Shown here one piece after another: positions 2,283 through 43,756 of a stretch of DNA of 64,000 nt. Origin of the DNA: Solimonas flava DSM 18980 (GTDB lineage: Bacteria > Pseudomonadota > Gammaproteobacteria > Nevskiales > Nevskiaceae); the NCBI RefSeq assembly GCF_000426685.1, contig NZ_AUFV01000019.1, positions 1-64,000 of the forward strand, given 5' to 3'. The notes below the pieces were generated by a model that ran no database searches, was not told the DNA's origin, and saw nothing but the letters and a program-made list of their open reading frames with translations. The translations under genes and the position numbers were made by a program. Each line of letters starts with the position of its first letter. Positions within the stretch are counted from its first letter, which is position 1.

Positions 2283-2861
2283 ATGGACGTGATGTCCAAG
2301 GGGATGCTCGAGGTCGATGAAGATCGGCAATCCACGGGGGTGGATGCCGAGCCCTTGTCGGTCCGGACAGCGATCGAGCGCTATCACGGCGCCTTGATCC
2401 AGTTTCTGCGCCGTCGCTTGCGCTGTCCCGATGATGCCCAGGATGTGGCGCAGGAGGCCTATATGCGGATGATGCGCTACGAGGGCGCGCGCGACATCCG
2501 CTCGCCGTCGTCGATGCTGTTCCGGATCGCGACGAATGTTGCCAATGACCTGGAGCGCGCCGAGCATGCCCGGCACGTTTCTGCGCAGTGCACGCTCGAC
2601 GACGTGGAGCTGGTATCGGACCGCCCTTCGCCGGAGCGCGAACTCGTGGCGCGGCAGGATCTGGCCTTGCTCTACGAGGCGATCGTCGAACTGCCGCCGA
2701 AGTGTCAGCAGGTCTTTCTGCTGAGTCGCGTCAAACACATGACCTATCCCGAAATCGCCCGGCATTGCGGCATTTCGGTGAAGATGGTGGAGAAGCACAT
2801 CAGCCGCGCGCTGGCATTTTGTGCGAAGAAGGTAGGGGGAGACGGGAGCACTCCGTCATAG
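2283..2861 (+). CDS. FecI-type ECF RNA polymerase sigma factor
   Basis: A 192-residue ECF sigma factor of the iron-starvation/FecI type. Region 2 is visible around residues 26-90 (CPDDAQDVAQEAYMRMM, then SPSSMLFRIATNVANDLER). Region 4 lies at the C-terminus (ELPPKCQQVFLLSRVKHMTY followed by the helix-turn-helix PEIARHCGISVKMVEKHI). I chose ATG 2283 because GGGAG sits 5 bases upstream; the in-frame GTG at 2271 overlaps that site. FecR follows immediately. By analogy with E. coli FecI it would be held inactive until FecR relays a receptor signal. It is the best candidate reader of the GGTAGGGG-N15/16-CGTC promoters across the window. Confidence 0.93.
   Translation: MDVMSKGMLEVDEDRQSTGVDAEPLSVRTAIERYHGALIQFLRRRLRCPDDAQDVAQEAYMRMMRYEGARDIRSPSSMLFRIATNVANDLERAEHARHVSAQCTLDDVELVSDRPSPERELVARQDLALLYEAIVELPPKCQQVFLLSRVKHMTYPEIARHCGISVKMVEKHISRALAFCAKKVGGDGSTPS
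2831..2857 (+). promoter_or_regulatory. ECF-type promoter 1, upstream of fecR
   Basis: GGTAGGGG at 2831-2838, then 15 bases, then CGTC at 2854-2857, all inside the last codons of the sigma gene. Transcription would begin near 2864-2866, right at the first possible fecR start codon. This lets fecR and receptor 1 be induced apart from fecI. Confidence 0.6.
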
Positions 2862-2865
2862 TCTC

Positions 2866-3879
2866 ATGGTAGATGACGAAAAGAACGGAACGATGGATCG
2901 GGCTCTAGACGAGGCCGCCGGCTGGCATGCGCGCATGTCGGCAGGCGACTGCTGTGCGCAGGAAAAAAACGACTTCGAACGCTGGCTCGGGGCGAGCGAG
3001 GCGCACGCGCGCGCGTACGCGCGCGTACGCGGCGTGGCGGCTGCGCTCGACGAGCTGGGCGGCGCCGACGCGCGCCTCCAGGCGCTGGCCGAGCAAGCCT
3101 ACCGGGATGCCGGACGCGAGCCGCGCGTGCGCCACCGCCGGCGCATGTTCCTGGCCATGGCGGCGAGCGTGGTTGCGGTGGTCGGCTTGGCTGTTCTTCT
3201 CCGCCAGGAGAGGCCGCAGGACGTCGATCTCGTGCGCTACGAGGCGCCACCGTATGAACGCCGTGACATCAATCTGGCGGACGGCTCTCTGGTCAGACTG
3301 GACGCCGACAGCATCTTGACCGCCCGGCTATCGGGAGGGGAGCGGCGAATCGACATGCTGAAGGGGCGCGCCGTGTTCGACGTGTATCACGACGCTGCGC
3401 ACCCGTTCGTCGTGCATTCCGGCGGCGCGAGAGTGACGGCGCTCGGCACGATCTTCGAGGTCAGCCGCACTTCCAGCGAAATCGTGGTGACGCTGGAGCA
3501 AGGTTCGGTTCTGGTGGCCGAAGAGGAGCAGGCGACGGGTCAGGGCGAGCGTCTGGCGCCCGGCGAGCAGATCAGGATTCCGTCCGGAGCCGCACCGGTT
3601 TCGTGGACACGCCTGAATGTCGATGCCGGACAGGTGACGAACTGGTCGCGCGGCCGTCTGATCTTCCGCAACGCGCCCTTGCGCGAGGTTCTTGCGGAAC
3701 TCAACCGCTATTCGCCGAAGAAGATCAGGGTCGGCAACTCGTCGCTCGACAGCGTCCCCGTCAGCGGCAGTTTCGTGACCGGCAACAGCGACATCGTCGC
3801 ACCGGCGCTGGCGGCTGTGCTGCCCGTTGATGCGGTCGACCATGGCAACGAGTTCATCCTCATCGAACGTCGCCGCTAG
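2866..3879 (+). CDS. FecR-type anti-sigma factor / sigma regulator
   Basis: About 337 residues. The N-terminal cytoplasmic segment (EAAGWHARM, then NDFERWLGASEAHARAYARV) is typical of FecR proteins. One membrane segment lies near residues 95-110 (MFLAMAASVVAVVGLAVLL). The periplasmic FecR domain follows (INLADGSLVRLDADS, then FVVHSGGARVTALGTIFEV), and the C-terminal part resembles the STN-contacting domain (LIFRNAPLREVLAELNRYS). It begins 4 bases after the sigma gene. Neither ATG 2866 nor ATG 2893 has a strong ribosome site. If ECF promoter 1 is used, 2866 would be leaderless and 2893 (preceded by GGAA) is likelier. Its expected job is to bind the sigma factor and respond to the STN domain of the next gene. 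Confidence 0.92.
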   Translation: MVDDEKNGTMDRALDEAAGWHARMSAGDCCAQEKNDFERWLGASEAHARAYARVRGVAAALDELGGADARLQALAEQAYRDAGREPRVRHRRRMFLAMAASVVAVVGLAVLLRQERPQDVDLVRYEAPPYERRDINLADGSLVRLDADSILTARLSGGERRIDMLKGRAVFDVYHDAAHPFVVHSGGARVTALGTIFEVSRTSSEIVVTLEQGSVLVAEEEQATGQGERLAPGEQIRIPSGAAPVSWTRLNVDAGQVTNWSRGRLIFRNAPLREVLAELNRYSPKKIRVGNSSLDSVPVSGSFVTGNSDIVAPALAAVLPVDAVDHGNEFILIERRR

Positions 3880-4060
3880 TTTTCCCGCCAGTTCATCGAT
3901 ACACGCGGCGGGCGCGTGCGGGTCCGGGTCTGGACCAGGCCGCCGGGACCCGCTGCCGTCCGCGACCGATGCGGCACCTGCGTTCCGCCTTTCCCTCCGC
4001 CACTTCCGGCGCGCTTGCCGGCAGTGCGGACGAGCAGCATCTCCGGCGTACCGGCGTGGC

Positions 4061-7006
4061 GTGCGGTTCGCACGCGAGGCAGGCGTCGCGCTGGCGCTAG
4101 CCTGTGTGCTGGTCGCTGCAGCCGCGCCCGCTCGCGAAAGCGGAGCGCTGGTCGCGTTTGATATCCGGGCGCAGAAGCTGGTCGACGCGCTCAATGTCTT
4201 TGCAGAACAGAGCGGTCTTCAGGTTGTCTACGAAGACGCCCAGCTCGAGCCGCTGGTCGCGCCGGAAGTCGTTGGCTCCATGTCGCCCGAACAGGCTCTG
4301 CGACGCCTGCTTGGAGCCGCGCCGATCGAATGGCGGACGCTTGGCAGCCACACGGTCGTCGTGCGGCTGCGCGCGGCGCAGCCCGAGCCGCCGGCCACGG
4401 ACGCCGAGCGCCGCGGCAGCGGCATGGAAACCATCATCGTCCTGAGCCGGGCGGAGCGGGCCGAGGCCCGGGCGCGGTCCGACGTTGTCAGCGATTCGGC
4501 ATTCGGATTCGGCAAGACGCTGTCCGAAACGCCGCGCTCGATCTCGGTCATCGACGGCAAGACCATCGATCTGTTCCGCGTCGCGTCGGTCGAGGACATG
4601 GCCAGGCTGGTGCCCGGCACGTATACGACGACCCGCTTCGGCATCCAGGGCGGCATCGACATCCGCAATTCGCCGGCCGACACTTTCTTCCGCGGCATGA
4701 AGCGCCTGAACCTGCAGGGACATGCGCCGTCGGTGCTGTCGGCGATGGACAAGATCGAGGTCGTCCGTGGGCCACCGTCGCCGATCTACGGCATGAGCCG
4801 CATCGGCGGCTATACGAACATGGTGCCGCGCTCGGCGCGCGCGGAGCAGGGCCGCTATCTCGATCATCCGCAGCTCGTGACGCAGGCGCGCTACGGCAGC
4901 TATGAGCAGAGGCAGGCGACCCTGGGATATGGCGGGCCCGCCGCCGTCGCGGGGCGTCCCGCCGGCTACTACCTCTATGGCTTCTTCGAGGACTCGGGCA
5001 GCTACGCCGAGGACGTGCCGCTGGAGTCGCTGCTGTTGCAGGCCGCTTTCTCGATCGACCGCTTCGCCGGGCCGCTGCGCCTGGAGGCGGGCGTCACCGT
5101 GCAGCGCTCGCGCACTTCAGGGGCGATGATCAATCGCGTGACGCAACCCCTGGTCGACCACGGCCGCTATGTGCGCGGCACGCCGCTGATCGACCTCGAT
5201 CTGGATGGCAGCGGCGCGATCAGCTACCGCGAAATCCATCAGGCCTCTCCGGCCCGCGGCACGCTTGCCGCCGGCAACCAACCACTGCGGCAGTACTGGG
5301 CCTGGCCGCTCGACGCCGATGGCCGGCGCCTGCCGCTCGGCCGCGCGTTTCCGACGACCGCCGGCATTCCGCAGTCGATGTACGACTATCTGCAGCTGCA
5401 TCCCGACAAGGATCCCGGCGGCTGGCTGCGGGCGGCCGGTGCCGGCGGGCCGCGGCCGTCGTCCGGCTATGTGCCGGCCGGTCTCGTACTCGATCCGACC
5501 ACGATCGCCTACGACCAGCTCAATCTGCGCCGCGCCGCCGCCTACGAGCGCGATCTGCTGGCGCGCTTCGCGACCGTCTACGTCGACCTGATCTACGACG
5601 ACGATCCATCTCTGCGCTTCAAGAATCAGCTGTTCTTCGACGGCATGGATCAGTACAAGAGCTCGAACCAGCCGTTCGGCGATATCCAGCAGCCCTGGGT
5701 GGCGGAGGAGAAGTTCACGTTGATGCTGAAGCCGCAGCGCATGCCGTCGTGGGTCGAACTGGAAACGCTCGGGGCACTCAACTTCCGCTACACCGATTCG
5801 CTCAGCCACATCTGCGCAGGCGATTTCAGCAACTCCCGGACCGACGCGATGGCGCCGACCTGGCGCGCGGCGACCGGCGGCATGACGCCGAACACGACGT
5901 TCGTGAACTGCGTGGAGAACAGTGACATCGATGCCGGCGGCTATCCGTATACCTCGACCGGCCGCACGAAGTACTCGCAGCTCGGCGCCGGGCTGCTGTT
6001 CGACCTGCAGTTCGCCGGCGGCACGGACGTGCTGCTCGGCGCGCGCTGGGACGGCTCCACGGCGCGTAACACCGAAACCGGAGAAGCGTACAACGTCAAC
6101 ACCGGGACTTCGGCGGCGCCGGGCGCGCCGACGACGCGCATCTCGGGCAGGGGTTGGGACAGCGGCCTGTCGTGGTCGGCGAGCATTTCGCAGGATCTCG
6201 GATTCGGGATTCGCCCGTATCTGTCGTTTGCCGACGCGAGTGTCCTTCTCGACAACAACGCCAATCGCATCAGCAACAGCGTCATTGGTCGCGGACACAT
6301 TGGCAGCTCCCAGCTCCGCGAGATCGGCATCAAGTCCGGTGCTTTCGGCGGACATCTGCTTTTCTCCGCCGCGGCCTATGACCAGCGCCGCAGCGACGTC
6401 GCGCGGCCGAGCGACCCTTCGCTGTCGGCCGACGTGGCGTCGACGGTCGCGCGCGGCTGGGAAAGCGAGATCAAGTGGCAGACCGATCGCTCGATGCTGT
6501 CGTTCTATGCGACGCGCCAGACCGTCACGTTCAATCCGAATCGCGGCGGGGCGATGATGATCGACGCGCGCGCGCTCGGCTTCCAGGACGTTGTCGGCAC
6601 CGACGGCACGATCATCTATCCGGCGGAGGCTTTCCTGTACGGAGGCCAGTCGATGATCGTGCTGCCCGACGGCATGCGCGGTTATCGCTACAGACAGGGG
6701 ACTCCGGATTTCCAGATCGGCCTGAACGCGAGTCATCTCTTCAGCAGCGGGCTCGGCGTTTCCGGCGGCTTGCAGTATCTATCGGATTTCTACGCCGGGC
6801 GTCTGAAGCTGATCCGGCTGCCGTCGGCGCTCGTCATCAACGCCGGCCTGCGCTACGAGCGCGGCCCTGCGCTCTTGCGTTTCGACATCTTCAACCTTAC
6901 CGACGAGCGCTATTTCCGCGCGCGCAACACGGATTCCTATACCGACTATCCGCTGACGGCGATGCCGCGGCGAAACTTCAGTATCTCGATGCAGCTCGAT
7001 TTTTAG
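4061..7006 (+). CDS. TonB-dependent receptor with N-terminal STN signalling domain
   Basis: FecA-like transducing outer-membrane receptor. From GTG 4061 it has 981 residues and begins with a clean Sec signal peptide ending AAAAPA. An open frame extends back to TTG 3827/ATG 3830 inside fecR, but that would put about 80 odd residues ahead of the signal peptide. The STN domain follows the signal (FDIRAQKLVDALNVFAEQSG, QVVYED, PEQALRRLL). Next come the plug (GKTLSETPRSISVIDGKTI, EVVRGPPSPIYGMSRIGGYT) and a barrel ending in SMQLDF. An EF-hand-like loop, DLDGSGAISYRE, lies at 5198-5233. The STN domain is expected to signal to FecR just upstream. No haem or siderophore specificity can be read. Confidence 0.9.
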   Translation: MRFAREAGVALALACVLVAAAAPARESGALVAFDIRAQKLVDALNVFAEQSGLQVVYEDAQLEPLVAPEVVGSMSPEQALRRLLGAAPIEWRTLGSHTVVVRLRAAQPEPPATDAERRGSGMETIIVLSRAERAEARARSDVVSDSAFGFGKTLSETPRSISVIDGKTIDLFRVASVEDMARLVPGTYTTTRFGIQGGIDIRNSPADTFFRGMKRLNLQGHAPSVLSAMDKIEVVRGPPSPIYGMSRIGGYTNMVPRSARAEQGRYLDHPQLVTQARYGSYEQRQATLGYGGPAAVAGRPAGYYLYGFFEDSGSYAEDVPLESLLLQAAFSIDRFAGPLRLEAGVTVQRSRTSGAMINRVTQPLVDHGRYVRGTPLIDLDLDGSGAISYREIHQASPARGTLAAGNQPLRQYWAWPLDADGRRLPLGRAFPTTAGIPQSMYDYLQLHPDKDPGGWLRAAGAGGPRPSSGYVPAGLVLDPTTIAYDQLNLRRAAAYERDLLARFATVYVDLIYDDDPSLRFKNQLFFDGMDQYKSSNQPFGDIQQPWVAEEKFTLMLKPQRMPSWVELETLGALNFRYTDSLSHICAGDFSNSRTDAMAPTWRAATGGMTPNTTFVNCVENSDIDAGGYPYTSTGRTKYSQLGAGLLFDLQFAGGTDVLLGARWDGSTARNTETGEAYNVNTGTSAAPGAPTTRISGRGWDSGLSWSASISQDLGFGIRPYLSFADASVLLDNNANRISNSVIGRGHIGSSQLREIGIKSGAFGGHLLFSAAAYDQRRSDVARPSDPSLSADVASTVARGWESEIKWQTDRSMLSFYATRQTVTFNPNRGGAMMIDARALGFQDVVGTDGTIIYPAEAFLYGGQSMIVLPDGMRGYRYRQGTPDFQIGLNASHLFSSGLGVSGGLQYLSDFYAGRLKLIRLPSALVINAGLRYERGPALLRFDIFNLTDERYFRARNTDSYTDYPLTAMPRRNFSISMQLDF

Positions 7007-7023: not shown

Positions 7024-7051
7024 GGTAGGGGAAGACGAAGTTTTCATCGTC
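7024..7051 (+). promoter_or_regulatory. ECF-type promoter 2, upstream of receptor 2
   Basis: GGTAGGGG at 7024-7031, 16 bases, then CGTC at 7048-7051. The predicted transcript would start about 7058, 55 nt before ATG 7114 and at the foot of the leader hairpin. Confidence 0.65.
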
Positions 7052-7113: not shown

Positions 7114-9915
7114 ATGCGTCGTCGATCCAAGCCTCGCGGCTCCGAGCGTCTGCTGCACGTCGCAACGTTCGGTTTGTTCTCGTCCTACGCTGCACTGGCG
7201 CCGGCCCTCGCGCTTGCCCAGGGCGCATCCGCGCCGCCGCCTGCTGCCGCGACGGTTGCGGACAGCGGCGAGATCTCGGAAGTGATCGTCAAAGGCGAGA
7301 AGCTCGCGCCGCTCGACATCTCCAGCGGTTCTTCCCTCGGCTTCGACAAATCTCTGCTGGAAACGCCGCGCACGGTGTCGTTCGTCGACTCGGAGCAGAT
7401 CAGCCTGCTCGGTATCTCCTCGGTCGACGATCTCACGCGTGCGGTGCCGGGCACCTTCACGACGACACGCTACGGCCTGCAGGGTGGCATCAATGTGCGC
7501 GGCGTGCCGGCCGACATGTATTTCCGCGGCATGAAGCGCATCAACATGCAGGGGCACGCGCGCACGAACCTGGCGGCGATGGATTCGCTCGAGGTCATCA
7601 AGGGCCCGCCGTCGCCGATCTACGGCATGGGCAAGATCGGCGGTTACACCAACATGACGCCGAAGTCGGGACGTGCCGTCAACGGCGGCTATCTCGACAA
7701 GCCGAGCGGCTTCATGCAGGCGATCGGCGGCGATTACGATCGCGCCGAGATGTCGGCCGGCGTCGGCGGCGGCTTCGATATCTTCGACCGCAAGGGCGGT
7801 TACTACGTCTACGGCCTGATGGAGAACTCCAACTCCTACGTCAAGCAGGTCGGCGTGAAGCAGAAGATCCTGCAGGGCTCGATGAGCGTCGACGATGCGC
7901 TGGGGCCTTTCCGTCTGGAGACCGGCGGCCAGTGGCAGAACTCGATCACCTCGGGCGCCTACATGAACCGCGCGACGCAGGCGCTCGTCGATCGCGGCCA
8001 GTACGTCGGCGGCATGCCGCTGGCGCAGCTCGATTTGAACCAGGACGGCGCGATCGGCTTCCGCGAAACGCATCTGGGATCGCCGATCACGTGGAAGGAT
8101 ACGGATGGCGACGGCGTCGCCGACACGCCGGCGGTGAGCAGCGGCAACCGTCCGCTATACCAGAACTACGAGTGGCCGACTTGCGACGGCGCGCCGTGCG
8201 CGGTCGGTCACTTCCCGACCGTCGCCGGTATTCCGCAGACGATGTACGACTATCTGTCGGCGAACAGCGCGGACGATCCGATCTCGCAGCTGATGCTCGC
8301 GCAAGGCGTCGGCGGTCCGCTGCCGGTCTCCGGCCAGCTGCCGGTCGGCATGGTGCTCGATCCGGGGACGTCCGGCTACAAGGATCTCGACTATCGCCGC
8401 AACGGCTCCTACGAGCGCGTGCAGGACGCCAAGCTCGGCATGCTGTATTTCGATCTCGTCTACGACCGCGATCCGGACTTCACGGTCAAGGCGCAGTTCT
8501 TCAAGGACTACCTGAACTCGTTCAAGAACTCGCAGCTGCCGTACGGCGAGAAGCAGGACATCCATCTCTGGGAAGAGAAGATCACCGCGACCTACCGCAT
8601 TCCGGACGACAAGCTGCCGAACTGGTTGCGCGTCAACAGCCTCGCGTCGATCAACTACCGCGAGACGCGCGGCGAGATCCGCAGCTCCGGCGGCGACTAC
8701 GACTGGCGCCAGGACGTGATGTACAAGGACGGCACCTACACGCCGAACACGCTGTTCTGGAACCAGCTCGACGACCAGAGCTCGGCGACCGGTGCGCCGG
8801 TGACGACCAACCGCGACAGCAAGTTCAGCGAAATGGGCGTCGGCTTCATGTTCGACATCGACCTGTTCCAGGATGACTCGAACCTGATCTTCAAGGGTAC
8901 GAACCTGCTGCTCGGCTGGCGCGTCGACGGCTCGCAGGCCAAGGGCAACGACTACAGCCGCTTCAACGAGAACGGCAGCTACGCGTACTACGACGACGAA
9001 GGCAATCTGCAGACCAAGGATGCCACCTTGGCGCCGGCGCATGCCCAGCGCTGGGACGACGGCACGTCCTGGAGCGCGAGCCTCTCGCAGCAGCTGCCCT
9101 GGGGTCTGCGTCCGTACATCACCTTCGCCAAATCGAGCGTGACGCTGGATGCGTCGAACAACATCATCCAGGTCAGCACGCTGAAGTCGCCGGGCGGCCA
9201 TATCGGCGAAGCGGAACTGCGCGAACAAGGCCTCAAGGCCGACTTCTTCGGCGGCAAGCTCGGCATCACCGTCGCTCACTACAAGCAGACGCGTACCGAC
9301 GTTTCCAGCGCCACCGATCCGACCCTGAGCGCCGAAGTTTCGAGCACCGAGACCAAGGGCTGGGAAGGCGAGGTCAAGTGGAACCCGACGCGCAAGGCCT
9401 TCATCTCGGCCTACGCGGTCTACCAGCAGCAGCGCTACCTGTTCAACTCGGCGACCACGTACCAGCTCGACGGCCGTTACCTGGGCTTCCAGGATGTCGT
9501 CGATCCGAGCACCGGCGCGGTGGTCTATCCGGCCGAGGCCTTCACCTACGGCGGCCGCACGCAGGTCACGGTGCCGACGGCGATCCTCAGCCAGTACATG
9601 AAGCCGAACGGCATCCCGGAGCACCAGTACGGCGTCAACGCCGGTTATACCTTCGACAGCGGCATCGGCTTCCTGCTCGGCGGCACGTACTGGTCGGAGG
9701 TGTACGCGGATCGCCTGGAGACGATCAAGCTGCCGTCCGCGACCGTGATGAACCTGGCGTTCACCTACGACCGTGCCGACTGGCACTTCAAGGTCAACGG
9801 CTACAACGTCACCGACGAGCGCTACTTCCGCGCGCGCAACAGCGCGACGACGCCGGGGCTGATCTCGGTGATGCCCGGCGCCCGCTGGGAAGCCACGGTC
9901 AAGCTCGACTTCTGA
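7114..9915 (+). CDS. TonB-dependent outer-membrane receptor without STN domain
   Basis: 933 residues. The Sec signal peptide ends near ALALAQG. The plug (ETPRTVSFVDSEQIS, EVIKGPPSPIYGMGKIGGYT) is followed by a beta-barrel ending TVKLDF. ATG 7114 has AGGGAG upstream. It is clearly paralogous to receptor 1: both share a GVPADMYFRGMKRINMQGHA-like stretch and the ERYFRARN motif near the end. It lacks the STN domain, so it is a pure importer. An EF-hand loop, DLNQDGAIGFRE, sits at 8032-8067 and a second acidic loop, DTDGDGVAD, at 8098-8124. It has its own ECF-type promoter and precedes the amidase operon. Confidence 0.92.
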   Translation: MRRRSKPRGSERLLHVATFGLFSSYAALAPALALAQGASAPPPAAATVADSGEISEVIVKGEKLAPLDISSGSSLGFDKSLLETPRTVSFVDSEQISLLGISSVDDLTRAVPGTFTTTRYGLQGGINVRGVPADMYFRGMKRINMQGHARTNLAAMDSLEVIKGPPSPIYGMGKIGGYTNMTPKSGRAVNGGYLDKPSGFMQAIGGDYDRAEMSAGVGGGFDIFDRKGGYYVYGLMENSNSYVKQVGVKQKILQGSMSVDDALGPFRLETGGQWQNSITSGAYMNRATQALVDRGQYVGGMPLAQLDLNQDGAIGFRETHLGSPITWKDTDGDGVADTPAVSSGNRPLYQNYEWPTCDGAPCAVGHFPTVAGIPQTMYDYLSANSADDPISQLMLAQGVGGPLPVSGQLPVGMVLDPGTSGYKDLDYRRNGSYERVQDAKLGMLYFDLVYDRDPDFTVKAQFFKDYLNSFKNSQLPYGEKQDIHLWEEKITATYRIPDDKLPNWLRVNSLASINYRETRGEIRSSGGDYDWRQDVMYKDGTYTPNTLFWNQLDDQSSATGAPVTTNRDSKFSEMGVGFMFDIDLFQDDSNLIFKGTNLLLGWRVDGSQAKGNDYSRFNENGSYAYYDDEGNLQTKDATLAPAHAQRWDDGTSWSASLSQQLPWGLRPYITFAKSSVTLDASNNIIQVSTLKSPGGHIGEAELREQGLKADFFGGKLGITVAHYKQTRTDVSSATDPTLSAEVSSTETKGWEGEVKWNPTRKAFISAYAVYQQQRYLFNSATTYQLDGRYLGFQDVVDPSTGAVVYPAEAFTYGGRTQVTVPTAILSQYMKPNGIPEHQYGVNAGYTFDSGIGFLLGGTYWSEVYADRLETIKLPSATVMNLAFTYDRADWHFKVNGYNVTDERYFRARNSATTPGLISVMPGARWEATVKLDF

Positions 9916-12074: not shown

Positions 12075-12122
12075 GCCGTCCTTTCTTCCTCCGCCGTTTT
12101 TCTCTGACAAGCGAGTGCCTAC

Positions 12123-13772: not shown

Positions 13773-13782
13773 GGCGCCGCGC

Positions 13783-15423: not shown

Positions 15424-15451
15424 CGTAGGGGAGCGGCCGGCGGCGGCCGTC
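15424..15451 (+). promoter_or_regulatory. ECF-type promoter 3, upstream of amidase 4
   Basis: GCGTAGGGG with its core at 15424-15431, 16 bases, then CGTC at 15448-15451. Transcription would start near 15458, about 30 nt before ATG 15491. It allows amidases 4-8 to be expressed independently of receptor 2. Confidence 0.6.
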
Positions 15452-17506: not shown

Positions 17507-17539
17507 CGTCTTTCTTTACTCCTGCCCGGATCTTTGTCG

Positions 17540-31049: not shown

Positions 31050-31051
31050 GC

Positions 31052-33422: not shown

Positions 33423-33449
33423 GACGGCGCGCGCCGGCGATCCCCCACC
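33423..33449 (-). promoter_or_regulatory. ECF-type promoter 5, upstream of amidase 12
   Basis: Minus strand GGTGGGGG ending at 33442, 15 bases, then CGTC (33426-33423). Transcription would start near 33416, about 75 nt before ATG 33340. GGGTGGGGGATCGC is shared exactly with promoter 7 at 43.7 kb. Confidence 0.6.
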
Positions 33450-33500: not shown

Positions 33501-33527
33501 GGTAGGGCGCCGGCCGTGCGCACCGTC
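33501..33527 (+). promoter_or_regulatory. ECF-type promoter 6, upstream of the membrane protein
   Basis: GGTAGGGC at 33501-33508, 15 bases, then CGTC at 33524-33527. The predicted start near 33534 lies 28 nt before ATG 33562. It is back-to-back with promoter 5, the two -35 elements being 53 bases apart. Confidence 0.55.
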
Positions 33528-35319: not shown

Positions 35320-36381
35320 ATGAACGACATTGCGAACGACATGAAGATCCGTCTTGCGGTACTGCTGATCCTGATCGCGCCGGGCCTCGCCGTCGGCACT
35401 GCCGCCGCGGCCGCCGAGCCGCTGCCGCAGGTGCGCCTGTTCACGACCGGCGGCACGATCCAGAGCCGCGGCGCCGACCGCCAGACGCTGATGGAATACA
35501 ACGCCGGCAAGGTCACGCCGCAGGAGCTGATCGACGATCTGCCGGAGCTCAAGGGCGTCGCCGATCTCAGCTACACCGAGATCGCCAACGTCGGCTCGCC
35601 GTCGATGAAGACACCGCTGCTGCTCAAGCTGGCCAGCGAGGTCAACGCCTGGCTGGCGCGGCCGGAGGCGGCCGGCGCGGTCGTCACGCACGGCACCGCG
35701 ACGCTGGAGGAAACCGCGTACTTCCTCAATCTGGTCGTGCACTCCGACAAGCCGGTGGTGATGGTCGGTGCGATGCGGCCGTTCACCGCGGTCTCGCGCG
35801 ACGGCCCGTTCAATCTCTACAACGCCGTGCGCGTCGCGGCGACGCCGGCGTCGAAGGGCAAGGGCGTGCTCATCATGCTCAACGACGAGATCAATGCCGC
35901 GCGCGACACGACCAAGAGCAACACCTATCGCGTCGAGACCTTCGTCGCGCGCGACCTCGGGCCGATGGGCTTCGCCGATTCCGACCGCGTCGTCTACTAC
36001 CGCAAGCCGCTGTATCGGCACACCGCCCGCTCCGAGTTCGATGTCTCCGCGCTGAGCGATCTGCCGCGCGTCGACATCAGCTATACCTACCAGGACGCCG
36101 ACGGCGTCGAGGTCGACGCGTTCACCGCCGCCGGCGCCAAGGGCATCGTGCTGACCGGCGGCGCCGGCGATGCGCTGAAGCGCGCGCAGGACCAGGGCGT
36201 GGTCATCGTCATGAGCGACCGCAAGGGCGCCGGCCGCGTGATGACGAGTGCGCGCGTCGCCGCGCGCGGCATCGTCACCGCCGACAACCTGCCGCCGCAC
36301 AAGGCCCGCATCCTCCTGCGCCTGGCGCTGACCAGGACCACGGATCCGGCCGAGATCCAGCGCATGTTCAACGAATACTGA
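35320..36381 (+). CDS. asparaginase/glutaminase-family amidohydrolase A (altered pocket)
   Basis: 353 residues with a signal peptide ending near AAAAA, typical of periplasmic type II L-asparaginase. Catalytic residues are conserved: T46 in TTGGTIQS, T126 in THGTATLEE and K199 in ARDTTKS, with Y60 as well. However, the Asp that follows the second Thr (HGTD in E. coli AnsB, Asp90) is Ala127 here, and Gln59 of the AnsB GSQ motif is Pro94. Both normally hold the alpha-amino group of asparagine. The C-terminus keeps the family pattern (ARILLRLALTRT, ending NEY). It is probably an active amidase on a different primary amide. It lies 30 bases after the membrane protein. Confidence 0.88.
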   Translation: MNDIANDMKIRLAVLLILIAPGLAVGTAAAAAEPLPQVRLFTTGGTIQSRGADRQTLMEYNAGKVTPQELIDDLPELKGVADLSYTEIANVGSPSMKTPLLLKLASEVNAWLARPEAAGAVVTHGTATLEETAYFLNLVVHSDKPVVMVGAMRPFTAVSRDGPFNLYNAVRVAATPASKGKGVLIMLNDEINAARDTTKSNTYRVETFVARDLGPMGFADSDRVVYYRKPLYRHTARSEFDVSALSDLPRVDISYTYQDADGVEVDAFTAAGAKGIVLTGGAGDALKRAQDQGVVIVMSDRKGAGRVMTSARVAARGIVTADNLPPHKARILLRLALTRTTDPAEIQRMFNEY

Positions 36382-36400
36382 GAAGGCGGACGAGAGCCCC

Positions 36401-37516
36401 ATGACCCTACGCAAGAGCGTGCTGTGCCTGCTGCTCGCGGTGCCGCTGTGCGGCGCTGCGCAGGCCCAGGAAATTCCCCGGTACGCGCCGCCGCCGCCGC
36501 TGCCGGCCGACACCGCGGCGCTGCCGACGGTGGTGCTGATGTCGTACGGCGGCACCATCGCCAGCCGCGGCCAGCCGCGGCTCAACATCACCAACTACGG
36601 CGGCAAGGAGAACAAGCGCGTCGATCCGCAGGACTGGCTCGACGATCTGCCGGAGCTGCGCGGCATCGCCAACATCGTGCTCGACGACGCGCGCGGTCCG
36701 GCCGACGCGCCGTCGGCGGTCTACGCCGATCAGGTGCGCATCGCCAGGCGCATGAACGAGCTGGTCCAAGACCCGAAGGTGCAGGGCATCGTGCTGACGC
36801 ACGGCACCAACTCGATGGCCGAGACGGCGTACTACCTGAACCTCGTCGTCAAGACCGACAAGCCGATCGTGCTGGTCGGCTCGCAGCGGCCGTGGACCGG
36901 CCTGTCCGGCGACGGCCCGCGCAATCTCTACGACGCGGTCCGCGTCGCGGCCTCGAAGCAGGCCTGGGGCAAGGGCGTGCTGCACTGCATGGACCAGTTC
37001 ATCAACACGGCGCGCGACGTCACCAAGACCAAGGCGTATCGCGTGCAGACCTTCCAGGGCATCGACGTCGGCGCGATCGGCTTCGCCGATCCGGACCAGG
37101 TCGTGTTCTACCGCGAGCCGGTGCGCCGCCACACGAGCGCGTCCGAGTTCGCCGGCCGCGACTATCCGGCGCTGCCGCCGGTCGAGATCGCGTACTCGTA
37201 CCGCGATGCGCCGGGCTATCCGATCGACGCGATGGTCAAGCGCGGCGTCAAGGGCATCGTCGTCGACGGCACCGGCGCCGGTTCGCCGACCGCCGAGCAG
37301 ACCGCCGCGATCAAGCGCGCGCAGGCCAAGGGCGTGGTCGTCGTCGCCACCGCGCGTACGCGCGGCGGTCGCGTGCAGGACACGCCGCGGCGCCGCGACG
37401 CGCACATCGTGCCCGGCGACAACCTGCCGCCGGAGAAGGCCCGCATCCTCCTGCAGCTCGCGCTGACCAGGACCCGCGATGTCCAGGACGTACAGAGAAT
37501 CTTCGATGAATACTGA
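36401..37516 (+). CDS. asparaginase/glutaminase-family amidohydrolase B (altered pocket)
   Basis: 371 residues. The signal peptide ends AQAQ and is followed by a Pro-rich linker (YAPPPPLPADTAALP). Catalytic T52 (SYGGTIAS), T136 (THGTNSMAE) and K209 (ARDVTKT) are kept. The substrate alpha-amino-binding Asp is Asn137, the following Thr is Ser, and the GSQ loop is replaced by a longer Pro/Asp-rich segment (DDARGPADAP). It is paralogous to the preceding gene, 19 bases away, but well diverged. The likely substrate is an amide without a free alpha-amino group or a larger molecule. That is inferred from the missing contacts. Confidence 0.87.
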   Translation: MTLRKSVLCLLLAVPLCGAAQAQEIPRYAPPPPLPADTAALPTVVLMSYGGTIASRGQPRLNITNYGGKENKRVDPQDWLDDLPELRGIANIVLDDARGPADAPSAVYADQVRIARRMNELVQDPKVQGIVLTHGTNSMAETAYYLNLVVKTDKPIVLVGSQRPWTGLSGDGPRNLYDAVRVAASKQAWGKGVLHCMDQFINTARDVTKTKAYRVQTFQGIDVGAIGFADPDQVVFYREPVRRHTSASEFAGRDYPALPPVEIAYSYRDAPGYPIDAMVKRGVKGIVVDGTGAGSPTAEQTAAIKRAQAKGVVVVATARTRGGRVQDTPRRRDAHIVPGDNLPPEKARILLQLALTRTRDVQDVQRIFDEY

Positions 37517-38639
37517 AATGCGGCAGACGCCGCGCCGCCGCGCGGCCTGGCTTGCGGCGCTGTGCGCGGTGCTGGCAGCGCCGCTCGCGCCACCGCTTGC
37601 CCAGGCGGCCGCAGGCTACGACCACCACGTGCGGCAGACGCCGGCCAATGCGGTGATCGGCAACTTTCCGGCGCAGAAGCAGCCGATCCTGACGGTCAAG
37701 AGCGGCGAGACCGTGCGTATCGACGGCGGCGGCGGCAACCGCTGGGGCGACGAGGACCCGCAGACCTGGCTCAAGGACAACGGCCTGTATCTGAACGCCG
37801 AGCAGCGCACCGCGATCGAGGAGATCGCGCGCGTGGTCAAGCAGACGCCGCGCCAGCCGGGCATTCCCGGCGGACACCTGCTGGTCGGGCCGATCGCGAT
37901 CGAGGGTGCGATGCCCGGCGACACGCTGGAAGTGCAGATTCTTTCCGTCGAACCGCGCATCCCGTACGGCGTGGTCAGCATGCGGCCCGGCCGCGGCGGT
38001 ATTCCGGACGAGGTGCCGGCGCCGTACGCCAAGCTCATTCCGCTCGATCTGAAGCGCAAGCTCGGTCGGTTCGATCCGGGCATCGAGGTGCCGCTCGGCC
38101 CGTTCAACGGCGTGATGGGCGTGCTGCCGGCGGCGTCCGAAGGCAGCAATCGTCGCAGCGGCCCGCCGGGCTTGTTCGGCGGCAACCTCGACTGCAAGGA
38201 ACTGGTCGCCGGCACCCGGCTGTTCCTGCCGGTATTCCGCCGCGGCGCGCTGTTCTTCACCGGCGACTCGCATGCCGCGCAGGGCGACGGCGAGGTGACG
38301 GTGACCGCGATCGAGACGGCCAACACCGTGGTGTTCCGCTTCGTGCTGCACAAGGGTATGCGGCTGAGTGCGCCGCGCGCCGAAACGCCGACGCACTGGA
38401 TCACCTTCGGGCTCGATCCGGATCTCGACAAGGCCATGCAGATGGCGATTCGCGAGACCAACGCCTTCCTCAAGGAGAAGAAGGGGCTGGAGTTCGAGCG
38501 CGCGTTCGCGCTGTCGAGCATCGGCATCGATTTTCGCGTCACGCAGGTCGTCGACGACGTCAAGGGCGTGCACGCGATGATCCCGAAGGCGCTGTTCGTC
38601 GACGACAAGCCCAGGCCCATCCGCAGCGGACGGCCGTAG
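37506..38639 (+). CDS. exported acetamidase/formamidase-family protein
   Basis: 377 residues from ATG 37506, which overlaps the previous stop by 11 bases; ATG 37518 is an alternative that avoids overlap. A signal peptide (AAWLAALCAVLAAPLAPPLAQA) precedes the domain. FmdA/AmdA-family hallmarks are visible: DHHV near the N-terminus, GHLLVGPIAIEGAMPGDTLE, and GDSHAAQGDGEV with its conserved Asp/His/Glu cluster. Known members are usually cytoplasmic and cleave formamide or acetamide, so an exported form is unusual. It would fit as a last step releasing ammonia from small amides. Confidence 0.88.
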   Translation: MNTEMRQTPRRRAAWLAALCAVLAAPLAPPLAQAAAGYDHHVRQTPANAVIGNFPAQKQPILTVKSGETVRIDGGGGNRWGDEDPQTWLKDNGLYLNAEQRTAIEEIARVVKQTPRQPGIPGGHLLVGPIAIEGAMPGDTLEVQILSVEPRIPYGVVSMRPGRGGIPDEVPAPYAKLIPLDLKRKLGRFDPGIEVPLGPFNGVMGVLPAASEGSNRRSGPPGLFGGNLDCKELVAGTRLFLPVFRRGALFFTGDSHAAQGDGEVTVTAIETANTVVFRFVLHKGMRLSAPRAETPTHWITFGLDPDLDKAMQMAIRETNAFLKEKKGLEFERAFALSSIGIDFRVTQVVDDVKGVHAMIPKALFVDDKPRPIRSGRP

Positions 38640-38694: not shown

Positions 38695-40254
38695 ATGTTC
38701 GATACGCAAGCGACGGCGTCCGTGACGGACGCCGGAGAACCGTCCGCGGCGTCGGCGCGTCTGTCGCGCCGCCGCTTCATCGGCGCGACGGCCGGCGCTG
38801 CCGGCGGCCTGGCGCTGCTGCGCTTCGCGCCGTCCGCGTTTGCCGCGCCGGCCGACGAGCTGCTGCAGAAGTCGGTCGTCGAGATCGCGGCGCTGCTCAA
38901 GGCCGGCAAGGTCAGCGCGGTCGAGCTCGTGCAGCGCTGCTATGCGCGCATCGACGCGGTGAATCCGCAGATCAACGCCGTGGTCGCGACCTGCCGCGAG
39001 CGTGCGTACGCCGAGGCCGCAGAAGCCGATGCGCTGCTCGCCGCCGGCAAGACCAGGGGGCCGCTGCACGGCGTGCCGTTCACAGTCAAGGATTCGTTCG
39101 ACACGGCCGGGCTGGTCAGCACCGGCGGCACGCTCGGCCGCAAGGATTTCGTGCCGGGCAAGGACGCGACCGTGGTCGCGCGTGCGCGCGCCGCCGGCGC
39201 GATCCTGCTCGGCAAGACCAACACGCCGGAGTTCACGCTCGGCGGCGGCGGCAAGGGCACGGTCAATCTGGTCTACGGCCTGACCCGGAATCCGTACAAC
39301 ACCGCCTACCAGCCGAGCGGTTCGTCGGGCGGCGCCGGCGCGATCGTCGCCGCCTGCGGCGCGTACTTCGACATCGGCTCCGACTACGGCGGCTCGATCC
39401 GCGGCCCGGCTTTCGCCAACGGCATCGCCGGCATCAAGCCGACCTACGGACGCGTGCCGCGCACCGGACACATCGTCGGCTACGGCGGTCCGTTCGACAA
39501 TTTCCAGGAGACCGGCCCGCTTGCGCGCGAGGTCGGCGATCTGGCGCTGCTGCTGCCGATCCTGGCCGGCCCCGACGGCCGGGACGCGGCGATGGCGCCG
39601 GTGCCGCTCGGCGATCCGGCCAAGGTCGCGCTCGGCCAGCTGCGCATCGCCTGGTACGTCAGCAACGGCCAGATGCCGGCCAGCGAGGAAATGCAGACCC
39701 TGGTCCGGCAGTGCGTCGGTTATTTCGAGAAGCTCGGCTGCACGATCCGGCAGGACGCACCGCCGAAGATGAAGGAACTGGCCGCCGCGCGCAGCACCTT
39801 CAGCGGCGCCGACGGCCGCGCCTACATGCGCCGCCTGCTCGCCCAGCACGGCACCAGGCAAGCCTCGCCGGGGCTGCGACTCGACGGCGCGGTGATCAGT
39901 GCGGCCGAGTTCACCGCCGCCTGCGAGCAGATGGACGCGATCAAGAGCGAGCAGCTGGCGTGGCTGGCGCAGTACGACCTGATCGTCTGTCCGGCGAGCC
40001 AGCGCGCGCCGATCCCGCTCGACTGGATGCCGCCGGGCGGCCGCGAGGCGCGCAGCGGCATGAGTTACACGAGCCAGTACAACACCACCGGCTGGCCGGC
40101 CGGCGTCGTGCGCGCCGGCACCTCGGCCAAGGACGCGCCGGGCCTGCCGATCGGCATCCAGATCGTCGGCCAGCCGTGGCGCGACGACGTCGTGCTCGCC
40201 GCGCTCGCGCACATCGAAAAGCAAACGGGCGGCTGGATCGCCCCGTCGATCTGA
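38695..40254 (+). CDS. Tat-exported amidase-signature hydrolase 13
   Basis: 519 residues. A twin-arginine signal, LSRRRFIGATAGAAGG, ends near AFAAPA. The triad is K132 (FTVKDSFD), S210 (SGSSGGAG) and S234 (GSDYGGSIRG). It belongs to a separate short subgroup with amidases 14, 16 and 17. This subgroup shares LLGKTNTPEFTLGG, GRVPRTGHIV and the C-terminal QPWRDD..LAA pattern. An AAGGGGGAA site lies before ATG 38695. It follows the acetamidase gene by 55 bases. CCGTAGGAAGAC at 38635 resembles part of the ECF -35, but no CGTC follows at the right distance. Confidence 0.9.
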   Translation: MFDTQATASVTDAGEPSAASARLSRRRFIGATAGAAGGLALLRFAPSAFAAPADELLQKSVVEIAALLKAGKVSAVELVQRCYARIDAVNPQINAVVATCRERAYAEAAEADALLAAGKTRGPLHGVPFTVKDSFDTAGLVSTGGTLGRKDFVPGKDATVVARARAAGAILLGKTNTPEFTLGGGGKGTVNLVYGLTRNPYNTAYQPSGSSGGAGAIVAACGAYFDIGSDYGGSIRGPAFANGIAGIKPTYGRVPRTGHIVGYGGPFDNFQETGPLAREVGDLALLLPILAGPDGRDAAMAPVPLGDPAKVALGQLRIAWYVSNGQMPASEEMQTLVRQCVGYFEKLGCTIRQDAPPKMKELAAARSTFSGADGRAYMRRLLAQHGTRQASPGLRLDGAVISAAEFTAACEQMDAIKSEQLAWLAQYDLIVCPASQRAPIPLDWMPPGGREARSGMSYTSQYNTTGWPAGVVRAGTSAKDAPGLPIGIQIVGQPWRDDVVLAALAHIEKQTGGWIAPSI

Positions 40255-40268
40255 AGCGGAGGCAGGCG

Positions 40269-41942
40269 ATGAAAGAAATGGACACGATGCACGATGCCCG
40301 GGCGGTCGACGCGGCTGACGTGGCGAAGCTCACGGATGTGGCGCCGGCGCTGCCGTCGCGGCGCAGCCTGCTCGGCCTGAAGCCGGCGCTGACGGTCGCG
40401 GCCGGTTCGGCGGCGCTGGCCGCCTGCGGTCCGCAACCGGCCGGCGCGCCGAAGCTGGAGACCGGCCGCAGCGGCGCCGCCGCGCCGGCGGCGAGCAGCG
40501 ACGCCAGCGACGAACTCATCTACATGTCGGCGACCAAGCTCGCCGGCCTGATCCGCGCCGGCAAGGTCACGGCGAGCGAGGCGGTCGAGGCGTATATCGC
40601 GCGGCAGCTCGCGGTCAACGACAGGCTCAACGCCGTGGTGATGAACTGCTACGAGCGGGCGCGCGCCGAAGCCAAGGCGTTGGACGCGCGCGCCGCGCGC
40701 GGCGAGTGGGCCGGCCCGCTGCACGGCGTGCCGATGACGATCAAGGATTCGCTCGACACCGAAGGCGTGATCTCGACCGGCGCGACCTACGGACGCCAGC
40801 AGTACGTGCCCGGCCAGGACGCGACGGTGGTGGCGCGCCTGCGCGCCGCCGGCGCGATCCTGCTCGGCAAGACCAACACGCCGGAGTTCACGCTCGGCGG
40901 CCTCGCCGGCATCAGCACGGCGAGCAATCTGCTCTACGGCTCTTCGCACAATCCCTACGATCTGACGCGCAGCACCTCCGGCTCGTCCGGCGGCGCCGGC
41001 GCGATCGTCGCCGCCGGCGGCGCGGCCTTCGACATCGGCTCCGACTGGGGCGGCTCGATCCGCGGGCCTTCGCACAACAACGGCATCGCCGGCATCAAGC
41101 CGACCTCGGTGCGCGTGCCGCGCACCGGCCATATCGTCGACTACGGCGGCATCTTCGATCTCTGGCAGCAGCTCGGCCCGATGACGCGCCGCGTCGAGGA
41201 CCTGGCGCTGATCACGCCGATCATCGCCGGCCCGGATTTCCACGACGTGTCGTGCGCGCCGGTGCCGTGGGCCGATCCGGCCAAGGTCGAGCTCAAGCCG
41301 CTGAAGGTGGCGTACTGCATCGACAACGGCGCCGTCGGCCGCAGCGCCACCGACGAGGACACCAGGAAGACCGTGCGCCAGGCCGCGCAGTGGCTGCAGG
41401 CGGCGGTCGCCGAGGTGCGCGAGGACGTGCCGCAGGCGACGCTGATGAAGCTCGCCGAGGCGCGCCGCCGCTTGACCACCGGCGACGGCTGGGCCTTCTA
41501 CCAGCGCCTCGCCGACAAGTGGGACACGCACAACATTTCGCCGTCGCGCAAGGCGGCGATGGACAAGGCCAAGCCGGCGAGTTCGGCCGAGCTGATCGAG
41601 GCCTGGCAGCAGCACGACGAGGCCAAGTCCGAAATGCTCGACTGGATGCAGGGCTACGACGTCTTCCTCTGTCCGGTCGCCGGCCAGCCGGCGCAGCCGA
41701 TCGATCAGGAAGCCGATCCGATGGCCGCCGGCAGCAGCGGCGCCGTCAACGGCTGGCCGTACACCGGCGCGTTCAACAGCACCGGCTGGCCGGTCGTCGT
41801 CGTGCGCTGCGGCAGTTCGGCGGATGGCAAGCTGCCGATCGGCGTGCAGGTGATCGCCGCGCCGTGGCGCGAGGACCTCTGCCTCGCGGTCGCGGCCTAT
41901 CTCGAAAGCAAGAGCGGCGGCTGGCGCAAGCCGCCGATCTGA
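40269..41942 (+). CDS. lipoprotein amidase-signature hydrolase 14
   Basis: 557 residues. A long N-region and a twin-Arg-like SRRSLLGLKP lead into a hydrophobic stretch ending in lipobox ALAAC (Cys53), so the mature enzyme is probably a Tat-exported lipoprotein. The linker GPQPAGAPKLETGRSG is flexible. The triad is K159 (MTIKDSLD), S239 (SGSSGGAG) and S263 (GSDWGGSIRG). It starts 14 bases after amidase 13 and is followed by a textbook terminator. It is closest to amidase 17, which has the same lipobox arrangement. Confidence 0.9.
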   Translation: MKEMDTMHDARAVDAADVAKLTDVAPALPSRRSLLGLKPALTVAAGSAALAACGPQPAGAPKLETGRSGAAAPAASSDASDELIYMSATKLAGLIRAGKVTASEAVEAYIARQLAVNDRLNAVVMNCYERARAEAKALDARAARGEWAGPLHGVPMTIKDSLDTEGVISTGATYGRQQYVPGQDATVVARLRAAGAILLGKTNTPEFTLGGLAGISTASNLLYGSSHNPYDLTRSTSGSSGGAGAIVAAGGAAFDIGSDWGGSIRGPSHNNGIAGIKPTSVRVPRTGHIVDYGGIFDLWQQLGPMTRRVEDLALITPIIAGPDFHDVSCAPVPWADPAKVELKPLKVAYCIDNGAVGRSATDEDTRKTVRQAAQWLQAAVAEVREDVPQATLMKLAEARRRLTTGDGWAFYQRLADKWDTHNISPSRKAAMDKAKPASSAELIEAWQQHDEAKSEMLDWMQGYDVFLCPVAGQPAQPIDQEADPMAAGSSGAVNGWPYTGAFNSTGWPVVVVRCGSSADGKLPIGVQVIAAPWREDLCLAVAAYLESKSGGWRKPPI

Positions 41943-42052: not shown

Positions 42053-43651
42053 TCAGTCCTGCGTGGCGACCGACAGCGGCGGCGTGCTCGCCGGCGGCCG
42101 GCGGTAGCGCGTGGCCTGCTCGTAGGCGTAGGCGTAGCCGATGAGGCGCGACTCGTCCCAGGCGCGGCCGAGGATCTGCAGGCCGACCGGCAGGCCGGGG
42201 CCGAGATAGCCGCTGGGCACCGACAGCGCCGGCCACTGCAGCGTGCTGCCGACGAAGGTCAGGCTGCTCGACAGGCCGGTGACGCCGCCTTTCGGGTTCG
42301 CTTCGTCGCTCATGATCTGCGTGTTGCGGTCGCCGTTGACGACCGGCAGCTGCGCCCAGGTCGGAAAGATCACGGCGTCGATGCGGCCGGCGTCCATCGC
42401 CTCGGTGAACGCGTCGCGATAGGCCTGCTCGGTCTGCAGGCCCTTGCGCGTCGCCTCGTCGCTGGCGACCGGGCCGGCTGCGGCGACCTCGTTCCAGCGC
42501 GCCTGATGCAGCGGATGCACGAGATGCGAATCGGCGATCGCCTGCGGACTCGCGTAGGGAATGCCGGGGTGCGCGGCGAGGAAGCGGATCATGTCGTCCT
42601 TCATCCGCGCCGGCGTCTGCGGCGCGCGCGGCAGCGTATCGAGCGCCGGCACGCCGAACGGGTCGACGATCTCGGCGCCGGCCGCCTTCAGCTCGGCGAG
42701 TGTGCGTTCGAAGTTGGCGATGATGCGCGGATCGGTGACGTTCGGCCGGAACACCTGGCGCAGCACGCCGAGCCGCGCGCCCTTCAGCGCGTCCTTGCGC
42801 AGCGCCGCGGTATAGGTCCGGGCGATGTGGCCCTGCGCGCGCGCCGTCGCCGGATCGCGCGCATCGACGCCGGCGAGGACGTCGAGCAGCACGGCGAGGT
42901 CGGCGACGCTGCGCGTCATCGGCCCGGCGGTGTCGCGGACGCTGTTGTTCGGCTGGATGCCGTCGCGCGAGACCAGCCCGACCGTCGGGCGCAGGCCGGC
43001 GAGCGCGTTGTGCGCCGCCGGCATGCGCACCGAGCCGCCGGTGTCGGTGCCGATGCCGACCGTCGCCAGGTTGGCGGCGATGGCCGCGCCGGTGCCGCCG
43101 GACGAGCCGCCGGTCGCGTAGGCGGTGTTGTACGGATTGCGCGCGTAGCCGGGCAGCACCGAGTTGATGTTGTCGCCGCCGCCGTTGGTGAACTCGGACA
43201 GCGAGGCCTTGCCGAGCACGATGCCGCCGGCGGCGCGGATCTTCGCGACCAGTGTCGCGTCGCGCGCCGGCACCCAGTGCTTCCAGCCCTGGAAGCCGGA
43301 GGTCATCGGCATGCCGGCGGCATCGATGCAGTCTTTCACCAGCACCGGAATGCCGTGCAGCGGGCCGCTGAGCTTGCCGCTCGCGCGGTAGGCGGCGTCG
43401 AGGCGTTCGGCTTCCTCGAGCGCTTTCGGATTGAGGTTGATGATCGAGTTCAGATACGGGCCTTGCTGGTCGTAGGCCTCGATGCGCGCCAGATACGCGG
43501 CGACGACCTGGCGCGCGCTCAGTTCGCCGCTGCGGTACGCGGCCTGCAGATCGGCGATGCCGGCTTCCTCGACGGCCAGCGCGTGGGCGGCGCCGCTGCA
43601 CAGCAGGGCGGCGGCGAGCGCGATGCGGCGCAGGCGGATGGCGGCGTTCAT
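42053..43651 (-). CDS. exported amidase-signature hydrolase 15
   Basis: 532 residues. The Sec signal (RLRRIALAAALLCSGAAHALA) is followed by VEEAGIADLQAAYRSGEL. The triad is K106 (VLVKDCID), S183 (GGSSGGTG) and S207 (GTDTGGSVRMP). The R-M-P after the nucleophile differs from R-G-P in most copies. It is a single-gene unit, convergent with amidase 14 and divergent from amidase 16. GAGGA lies upstream of ATG 43651. A weaker copy of the ECF-type promoter precedes it. Confidence 0.9.
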   Translation of the reverse strand: MNAAIRLRRIALAAALLCSGAAHALAVEEAGIADLQAAYRSGELSARQVVAAYLARIEAYDQQGPYLNSIINLNPKALEEAERLDAAYRASGKLSGPLHGIPVLVKDCIDAAGMPMTSGFQGWKHWVPARDATLVAKIRAAGGIVLGKASLSEFTNGGGDNINSVLPGYARNPYNTAYATGGSSGGTGAAIAANLATVGIGTDTGGSVRMPAAHNALAGLRPTVGLVSRDGIQPNNSVRDTAGPMTRSVADLAVLLDVLAGVDARDPATARAQGHIARTYTAALRKDALKGARLGVLRQVFRPNVTDPRIIANFERTLAELKAAGAEIVDPFGVPALDTLPRAPQTPARMKDDMIRFLAAHPGIPYASPQAIADSHLVHPLHQARWNEVAAAGPVASDEATRKGLQTEQAYRDAFTEAMDAGRIDAVIFPTWAQLPVVNGDRNTQIMSDEANPKGGVTGLSSSLTFVGSTLQWPALSVPSGYLGPGLPVGLQILGRAWDESRLIGYAYAYEQATRYRRPPASTPPLSVATQD

Positions 43652-43691
43652 GCGGGCGTGTCCTCGGCGGTTTTTGACTGTCCACTGGAAG

Positions 43692-43718
43692 GACGCGCGC
43701 CGCAGGCGATGCCCGACG
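43692..43718 (-). promoter_or_regulatory. degenerate ECF-type promoter 8, upstream of amidase 15
   Basis: Minus strand GTCGGGC (43717-43711), 15 bases, then CGTC (43695-43692) followed by CTTCC, much like CGTCCTTC of promoter 6. One base of the -35 core differs (C for A/G). The predicted start is near 43685, 34 nt from ATG. Confidence 0.35.
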
Positions 43719-43729
43719 TGCGCCGCCGG

Positions 43730-43756
43730 GGTGGGGGATCGCGCTCCGGCGCCGTC
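43730..43756 (+). promoter_or_regulatory. ECF-type promoter 7, upstream of amidase 16
   Basis: GGTGGGGG at 43730-43737, 15 bases, then CGTC at 43753-43756. Transcription would start near 43763, about 70 nt before ATG 43832. The divergent promoter 8 has its -35 only 13 bases away, so both sides may compete for polymerase. Confidence 0.6.

Follow-up and report, generated by a model that had tools for sequence, protein, structure and literature searches.

Surface signalling through a FecI-type extracytoplasmic function (ECF) sigma factor, a FecR regulator and a TonB-dependent receptor (TBDR) is known mainly for iron. In E. coli, as described in the sections of PMC9249621 on this system, FecA-FecR-FecI combines an ECF sigma factor with FecR and an STN receptor, and an ECF-type promoter precedes the receptor gene; fecIR is transcribed by sigma-70 without autoregulation, and fecABCDE, the iron operon, is what the system targets. 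The same source, in its part on Serratia, describes HasI-HasS-HasR, where the anti-sigma gene is under its own sigma factor and the locus carries a receptor-specific TonB paralogue, HasB (PMC9249621). In Bacteroides, ECF-sigma/anti-sigma systems regulate glycan-degrading enzymes together with TonB-dependent transporters, according to the relevant passages of PMC10766802. Herein, we analyzed positions 1 to 64,000 of contig NZ_AUFV01000019.1 of Solimonas flava DSM 18980 (the window), in which genes for a FecI-like sigma factor, FecR and two TBDRs adjoin a cluster of 17 amidase genes. The host is a soil and water bacterium. Seven sites of a motif composed of GGTRGGGS, a 15-16 nt spacer and CGTC are spread over this cluster, which very probably represents a cell-surface-signalling sigma regulon for amide use read by this FecI.

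The likeness to E. coli Fec lies in the ECF sigma factor, FecR, the STN receptor and a putative ECF-type promoter before the receptor gene. Unlike in Fec, the motif stands here before fecR, in three relatives also before fecI, and the putative targets are amide hydrolases. As in Has, an anti-sigma gene would be under its own sigma factor and a particular TonB paralogue would belong to the system; unlike Has, which targets heme, the TonB gene here lies on another contig than the cluster. We know of no array of catabolic enzymes in the Serratia Has system. The Bacteroides glycan loci (SusC/D) share the predicted joint control of degrading enzymes and transporters, whereas the present system is proteobacterial and appears amide-directed; no SusD was seen among the ~30 window open reading frames (ORFs) covered by general domain scans up to 54.2 kb. 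Peptide amidase (PDB 1m21, 5ac3) is a solved relative of the enzymes, from which the window differs by its array of 17 diverged amidases in a putative sigma regulon. For Bacteroides, PMC10766802 describes degradative enzymes and TonB transporters under ECF control, so the kind is known; the FecI-type amide-hydrolase regulon appears new, as none was recognised among the open-licence papers listed. We lean, with only slight preference, toward a gammaproteobacterial amide-utilisation counterpart of the Bacteroides glycan loci, in which a FecI-clade sigma factor with its own -35 element (GGTAGGGG) would sense an extracellular amide-rich polymer or peptide and co-induce receptors, a dedicated TonB and ~20 periplasmic hydrolases for nitrogen. 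At the sequence level, this signalling system would then extend from iron to a wide regulon of catabolic enzymes. The promoter code is conserved across several gammaproteobacterial lineages and is sharp enough to locate further members away from the cluster, so that regulon, ligand and sigma specificity can be tested directly. The finding also offers an approach to the purpose of the 17-amidase array, most of whose members carry export signals by eye.

Both strands of the window were searched for the motif. Exact matches with spacer 15 lie at 2831+, 29400-, 33449-, 33501+ and 43730+, and one with spacer 16 lies at 7024+; the site at 15424+, CGTAGGGG, has spacer 16 and one mismatch. All seven sites claimed in an earlier note on this DNA were thus recovered at their coordinates, six exact and one mismatched; in order of position we call them Promoters 1 to 7. 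GGTG-type sites account for two of the seven (33449- and 43730+). The six exact matches compare with a mean of 0.07 and a maximum of 1 in 60 dinucleotide shuffles, and none of 399 column-permuted control motifs reached six (mean 0.09, maximum 4). The earlier note had estimated about one chance match; rarity by chance held, and the estimate was too cautious. Half-site pairs with spacers from 5 to 30 numbered five at 15, one at 16, one at 10 and none at any other, and spacer 15 alone stands out within the window. Across the 4.46-Mb genome, five of the seven exact spacer-15 sites and one of the two exact spacer-16 sites fall inside the window. The very strict pattern GGTAGGGG-N15-CGTCTNA matched once in 11 genomes of the genus, at the window's own a10 site, and is too strict for useful searching. 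A weaker eighth site had been proposed at 43718-; it does not fit the consensus and is absent from the 25 best matrix matches. S. soli has a one-mismatch site, 346143+, at the corresponding place. The distance from CGTC to the likely start is 8 or 35 nt for fecR, 62 nt for TBDR2, 39 nt for a04, 108 nt for a10, 34 nt for the membrane protein and 75 nt for a16, and 82 nt to the ATG of a12. The sites do precede downstream genes, at 8 or 35 up to 108 nt rather than the 28-100 nt first given.

With one mismatch allowed, the whole genome holds 92 spacer-15 sites against 82 for the reversed pattern (no clear excess) and 128 spacer-16 sites against 257 (no excess), so the signal is confined to near-perfect sites. 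These counts favor the view that the sites are G-rich sequences matching by chance in a genome with 69% GC, as does the tally of exact spacer-15 sites in 55 genomes without an orthologue of the window FecI, which does not exceed the control (106 vs 154 for the reversed pattern). The exact window sites, however, lie ~90-fold above shuffles, and orthologous receptor genes are preceded by the motif even where the locus has 47-50% GC. Chance origin was rejected on the shuffles, the low-GC loci, the matrix ranking and the FecI-locus specificity, and we consider it practically negligible.

Searching with receptor 2 located the cluster in 6 of 61 genomes, counting the own one; among the relatives, G003 and G010 carry the same genus label as the window's genome. 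With an alignment of five receptors, 17 related loci were retrieved, several of which are near-duplicates and not fully independent; three share genomes with the 61-genome set. The motif occurs upstream of a TBDR gene in all 17. In 14 of them, the 400 nt upstream of the receptor match contain GGTRGGG-N16/17-CGTC, with none in 300 shuffles of each. In the remaining three it lies further upstream of a long receptor ORF (L118, L120) or before receptor 2 (L128), and L118 has it also directly before its second receptor. Loci L123, L124 and L127 have 47-50% GC, which makes a G-rich chance match there very unlikely. S. soli has counterparts at the same gene for six of the seven window sites, four of them exact and the remaining two having T or A at the eighth position; those of Promoters 5 and 7 are exact, and that of Promoter 3 reads GGTAGGGA. 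Homologues of the window's membrane protein were found in relatives' clusters, and the exact motif stands directly before this homologue in genomes G003, G010, G012 and G025.

A matrix was built from 58 relatives' sites, none from the window's genome, with spacers of 15 nt in 52 and 16 nt in 6. The earlier note had suggested a search with a matrix made from the window sites; the relatives' matrix recovered all seven window sites within the top eight (ranks 1-6 and 8). The training sites were chosen by consensus and include near-duplicates, making the core positions circular, and what the matrix newly contributes is limited to the TNA signal in the flank and to how the window sites rank. At the positions unused for site choice, the extended -10 CGTCTNA has T in 40 and A in 40 of the 58 sites. 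Rank 7 went to 34884+, within the membrane-protein gene, probably a chance match. In 116 kb of other own-genome DNA, which includes stretches taken because of three motif sites, scores above 8.2 were limited to those three (21.9, 20.0 and 19.3).

FecI orthologues with 68-80% identity occur in five relatives, that is, in 6 of 61 genomes including the own, and the next best match has 43%. Among the 30 of 53 FecI-like matches covered, the motif was found within 1.5 kb at 6/6 orthologue loci and 0/24 other FecI-like loci. Exact spacer-15 sites in the six orthologue genomes number 41, against 18 for the reversed pattern. When sites were split by type, after the site listing had been inspected, GGTA-type sites numbered 26 in the six orthologue genomes and 12 in the other 55 (binomial p 5e-18), and GGTG-type sites 15 and 94, hardly enriched with FecI. 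The GGTG variant is mostly background outside the window. The three other FecI/FecR regions of the genome gave no matrix score above 8.0, and sharing of the motif by these systems was rejected accordingly. In G010, G018 and H. effusa, the motif precedes fecI itself.

The sites might be read by a different ECF factor or DNA-binding protein, with FecI merely linked. The tie between motif and FecI comes from sequence, and homologues of FecR, the receptor and the amidases accompany the FecI orthologue in its genomes, so that co-occurrence by itself does not tell these candidates apart. CGTC is typical as the -10 element of ECF sigma promoters. Against another reader stand the ECF-like architecture (two blocks, the nearly fixed spacer and a CGTC -10), the specificity for loci of this FecI clade, the motif before fecI in three relatives, and the seven window sites heading nearly every unit of the FecI-bearing cluster. 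We judge such a reader quite improbable and favor this FecI.

FecI, FecR and receptor genes stand together once more in the own genome, with five amidase genes after them (G000:C14:27852-39697, L108). The FecI of this second cluster is 33% identical to the window FecI, the region lacks the window motif, and its receptor is preceded by ...GTACGTCATAG, possibly a different ECF promoter. Jointly with the amide-utilisation-locus reading, and with the same slight preference, we regard it as a parallel system with another promoter and ligand specificity.

We examined 37 of the 41 exact spacer-15 sites of the six genomes, leaving out four GGTG-type sites (G003:C1:140720, G010:C7:147559, G010:C28:5354 and G012:C5:1213430). 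The sites precede fecI, fecR, TBDR, amidase, asparaginase, membrane-protein or JmjC genes in 31 of the 37, two of them weak (a G012 asparaginase-like protein with 26% identity and a G025 contig-end receptor start of 25 residues). The other six misfit: a TolC-like gene, an AstE-like gene, a nuoA-like region and three places without a suitable gene. In G012, the motif stands at amidase genes mid-contig on other contigs (C8, C10). Four sites lie on G025 contig C38, which may be a broken-off remainder of its cluster.

In the own genome, C2:508444 precedes a JmjC_2 gene and C2:509680 (AGTAGGGG, one mismatch) a TonB gene truncated at the end of its contig. Both are supported because they are conserved in S. 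soli, where JmjC and tonB genes each have a one-mismatch site and the latter, complete there, matches TonB (PF03544). The motif was absent from ten further loci that hold tonB copies or parts of them, nine of these loci being informative (L144 holds the 3' part alone); among the tonB copies checked, one per genome carries the motif in the own genome and S. soli. The same promoter at the JmjC_2 and TonB paralogue genes suggests that the receptors' energy supply is probably co-induced with them. The pair lies at a contig end (G000:C2:508444-509928, L061), as do other tonB copies, which suggests that the assembly broke at repeated tonB genes.

The AstE-like misfit, an exact motif, lies 17 nt before an AstE/AspA-like gene at G000:C7:77269 (L064), with a nuoA-like gene further downstream; a nuoA-like gene of G018 likewise has an exact site upstream. 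The C7:77269 site may be a coincidence or mark a further target. The site at C16:50328 falls within a speA-like gene, on its opposite strand, and ahead of a speE-like gene; the nuoA, speA and speE names come from translations.

The earlier note's central proposal, that a shared ECF-type promoter ties receptors and amidases to FecI, gains support because the motif stands before orthologous receptors in other genera and orders, because it co-occurs with the FecI orthologue but with none of the other FecI-like genes covered, and because it recurs at unlinked amidase genes of relatives and the JmjC-tonB pair. The regulon predicted from the shared promoter is larger than that note saw, extending to the unlinked amidases and this pair. 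Several points weigh against a regulon read by this FecI, including the one-mismatch counts, the split made after inspection, the GGTG type hardly enriched with FecI, the circular core of the matrix, and the weak and misfitting sites just listed. In addition, a consensus site was not seen ahead of a10 in S. soli, ahead of fecR in L123, L124 and L127, or, by matrix scan, ahead of the window's own fecI. Site 15424+ scores lowest of the seven (11.0), below the 34884+ match. The basis of the reading is sequence evidence.

The protein families bear on a competing view, in which the system serves iron: the receptors would import an iron carrier of peptide or hydroxamate type, which the amidases would dismantle. 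The FecI-like protein (2271..2861, +) matches PF04542 and PF08281 above cut-off, and among the best 25 of 78 matching NCBIfam models only the ECF superfamily model TIGR02937 exceeds its cut-off; the ferric citrate FecI equivalog NF041727 is not reached (77.2 vs 260 bits). The FecR-like sigma regulator (2866..3879, +; start 2866 or 2893) matches PF04773 and PF16220/DUF4880 above cut-off. TBDR1 (ORF 3827..7006, +; exact start not fixed) has a Plug domain and an N-terminal STN below cut-off (21 vs 28.4 bits), and STN is above cut-off in three of four related receptors scanned, with the fourth at 28.1 bits. TBDR2 (7114..9915, +) shows Plug alone, with no STN detected. The parts of FecI/FecR/STN-receptor signalling are thus present, namely sigma regions 2 and 4, an adjoining FecR and an STN receptor (STN via relatives), together with a conserved ECF-like motif before the receptor gene, whose sigma dependence is predicted from sequence. 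FecI, FecR and STN receptors classically serve iron carriers, as the part of PMC9249621 on these systems describes, and the solved receptors closest to the window receptors are mostly siderophore receptors, aligned over the plug region. Both receptors, however, fall far under the TIGR01783 siderophore-receptor cut-off (68.8 and 74.4 vs 223.5 bits), the targets are ~20 amide hydrolases, and no siderophore gene was seen among the ~30 window ORFs scanned up to 54.2 kb, where no Fur-site search was made. We find an iron role unlikely and prefer amide use.

For the amide-use regulon, we infer sigma binding, signalling direction, operon structure and substrate class as follows. TBDR1, through its STN domain, would bind an extracellular amide-rich ligand and signal through FecR, which would release or activate the FecI-like sigma factor, following the FecA/FecR/FecI paradigm. 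FecI with RNA polymerase would then read GGTAGGGG - 15 (16) nt - CGTCTNA promoters heading the fecR-TBDR1, TBDR2-amidase, a04-a08, a10-a09, a12-a11, a16-a17 and membrane protein-asparaginase-FmdA-a13-a14 units. Import of the ligand would fall to TBDR2, and in the periplasm the enzymes would cleave amide bonds or liberate ammonia. Standing ahead of fecR, the motif would provide feedback of a sign that depends on whether FecR is an anti- or a pro-sigma factor.

The seven sites head seven putative units comprising every cluster gene except fecI itself and a15, with 16 of the 17 amidases, two asparaginases and one formamidase-like protein; that genes share a transcript is suggested by strand and spacing. 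Promoter 1 (2831..2857, +; exact, spacer 15) would serve fecR-TBDR1 and lies inside the fecI 3' end. A protein-level constraint is an unlikely explanation for this site because it uses rare codons (GTA 23/1134 Val, GGG 112/1537 Gly) and, in L121, L122 and L128, falls after the FecI match has ended. The Solimonas and Hydrocarboniphaga loci and several others likewise have a site where fecI meets fecR or close by. Promoter 2 (7024..7051, +; exact, spacer 16) precedes TBDR2 and probably serves amidases a01-a03 (10050..15408, +). Promoter 3 (15424..15451, +; one mismatch, spacer 16), the weakest of the seven, precedes a04 and probably serves a05-a08 as well (a04-a08, 15491..24241, +). On the opposite strand, Promoter 4 (29374..29400, -; exact, spacer 15, extended -10 CGTCTCA) precedes a10 and probably serves a09 (24542..29265, -; a10 read first), and the GGTG-type Promoter 5 (33423..33449, -; exact, spacer 15) precedes a12 and probably serves a11 (29415..33340, -; a12 read first). 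Promoter 6 (33501..33527, +; exact, spacer 15) would serve a conserved membrane protein (33562..35289, +), two type II-like asparaginases and an FmdA/AmdA-like protein (35320..38639, +; PF00710, PF17763, PF03069), and amidases a13 and a14 (38695..41942, +), which have Tat-type signal peptides by eye. Amidase a15 (42053..43651, -) is the sole amidase without a convincing promoter, having no consensus site. The GGTG-type Promoter 7 (43730..43756, +; exact, spacer 15) precedes a16 and probably serves a17 (43832..46944, +).

All 17 amidases exceed the PF01425 cut-off, and one Lys and two Ser columns are invariant in 17/17, which we take to be the catalytic Lys-Ser-Ser triad of the amidase signature family. 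The majority start with a Sec- or Tat-type signal (by eye), and some carry long extra segments. For a02 and a15, the best solved relative is peptide amidase (1m21, 5ac3; E 1.4e-100 and 8.6e-82), and a10 matches 5ac3 weakly (E 2.8e-23). The closest solved relatives of a13 are an amidase, GatA and a urethanase, and those of a06 are GatA and peptide amidase. The first asparaginase is above the TIGR00520 cut-off and the second just below; the FmdA/AmdA-like protein does not reach the formamidase equivalog cut-off. Together, the peptide-amidase relatives, asparaginases and formamidase-like protein point to amide nitrogen as the target, and our guess is that the substrates are probably peptide-derived. 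Neither Pfam nor NCBIfam gave a match for the membrane protein up to E 0.01, and histidine-rich segments are visible in it by eye.

Genes for an RND efflux adaptor and permease (47087-51273) lie directly 3' of a17. The TolC-like gene preceded by the motif in G012, named by reading of its translation, lies inside the cluster of that genome. Given these two placements, efflux genes may belong to the amide system.

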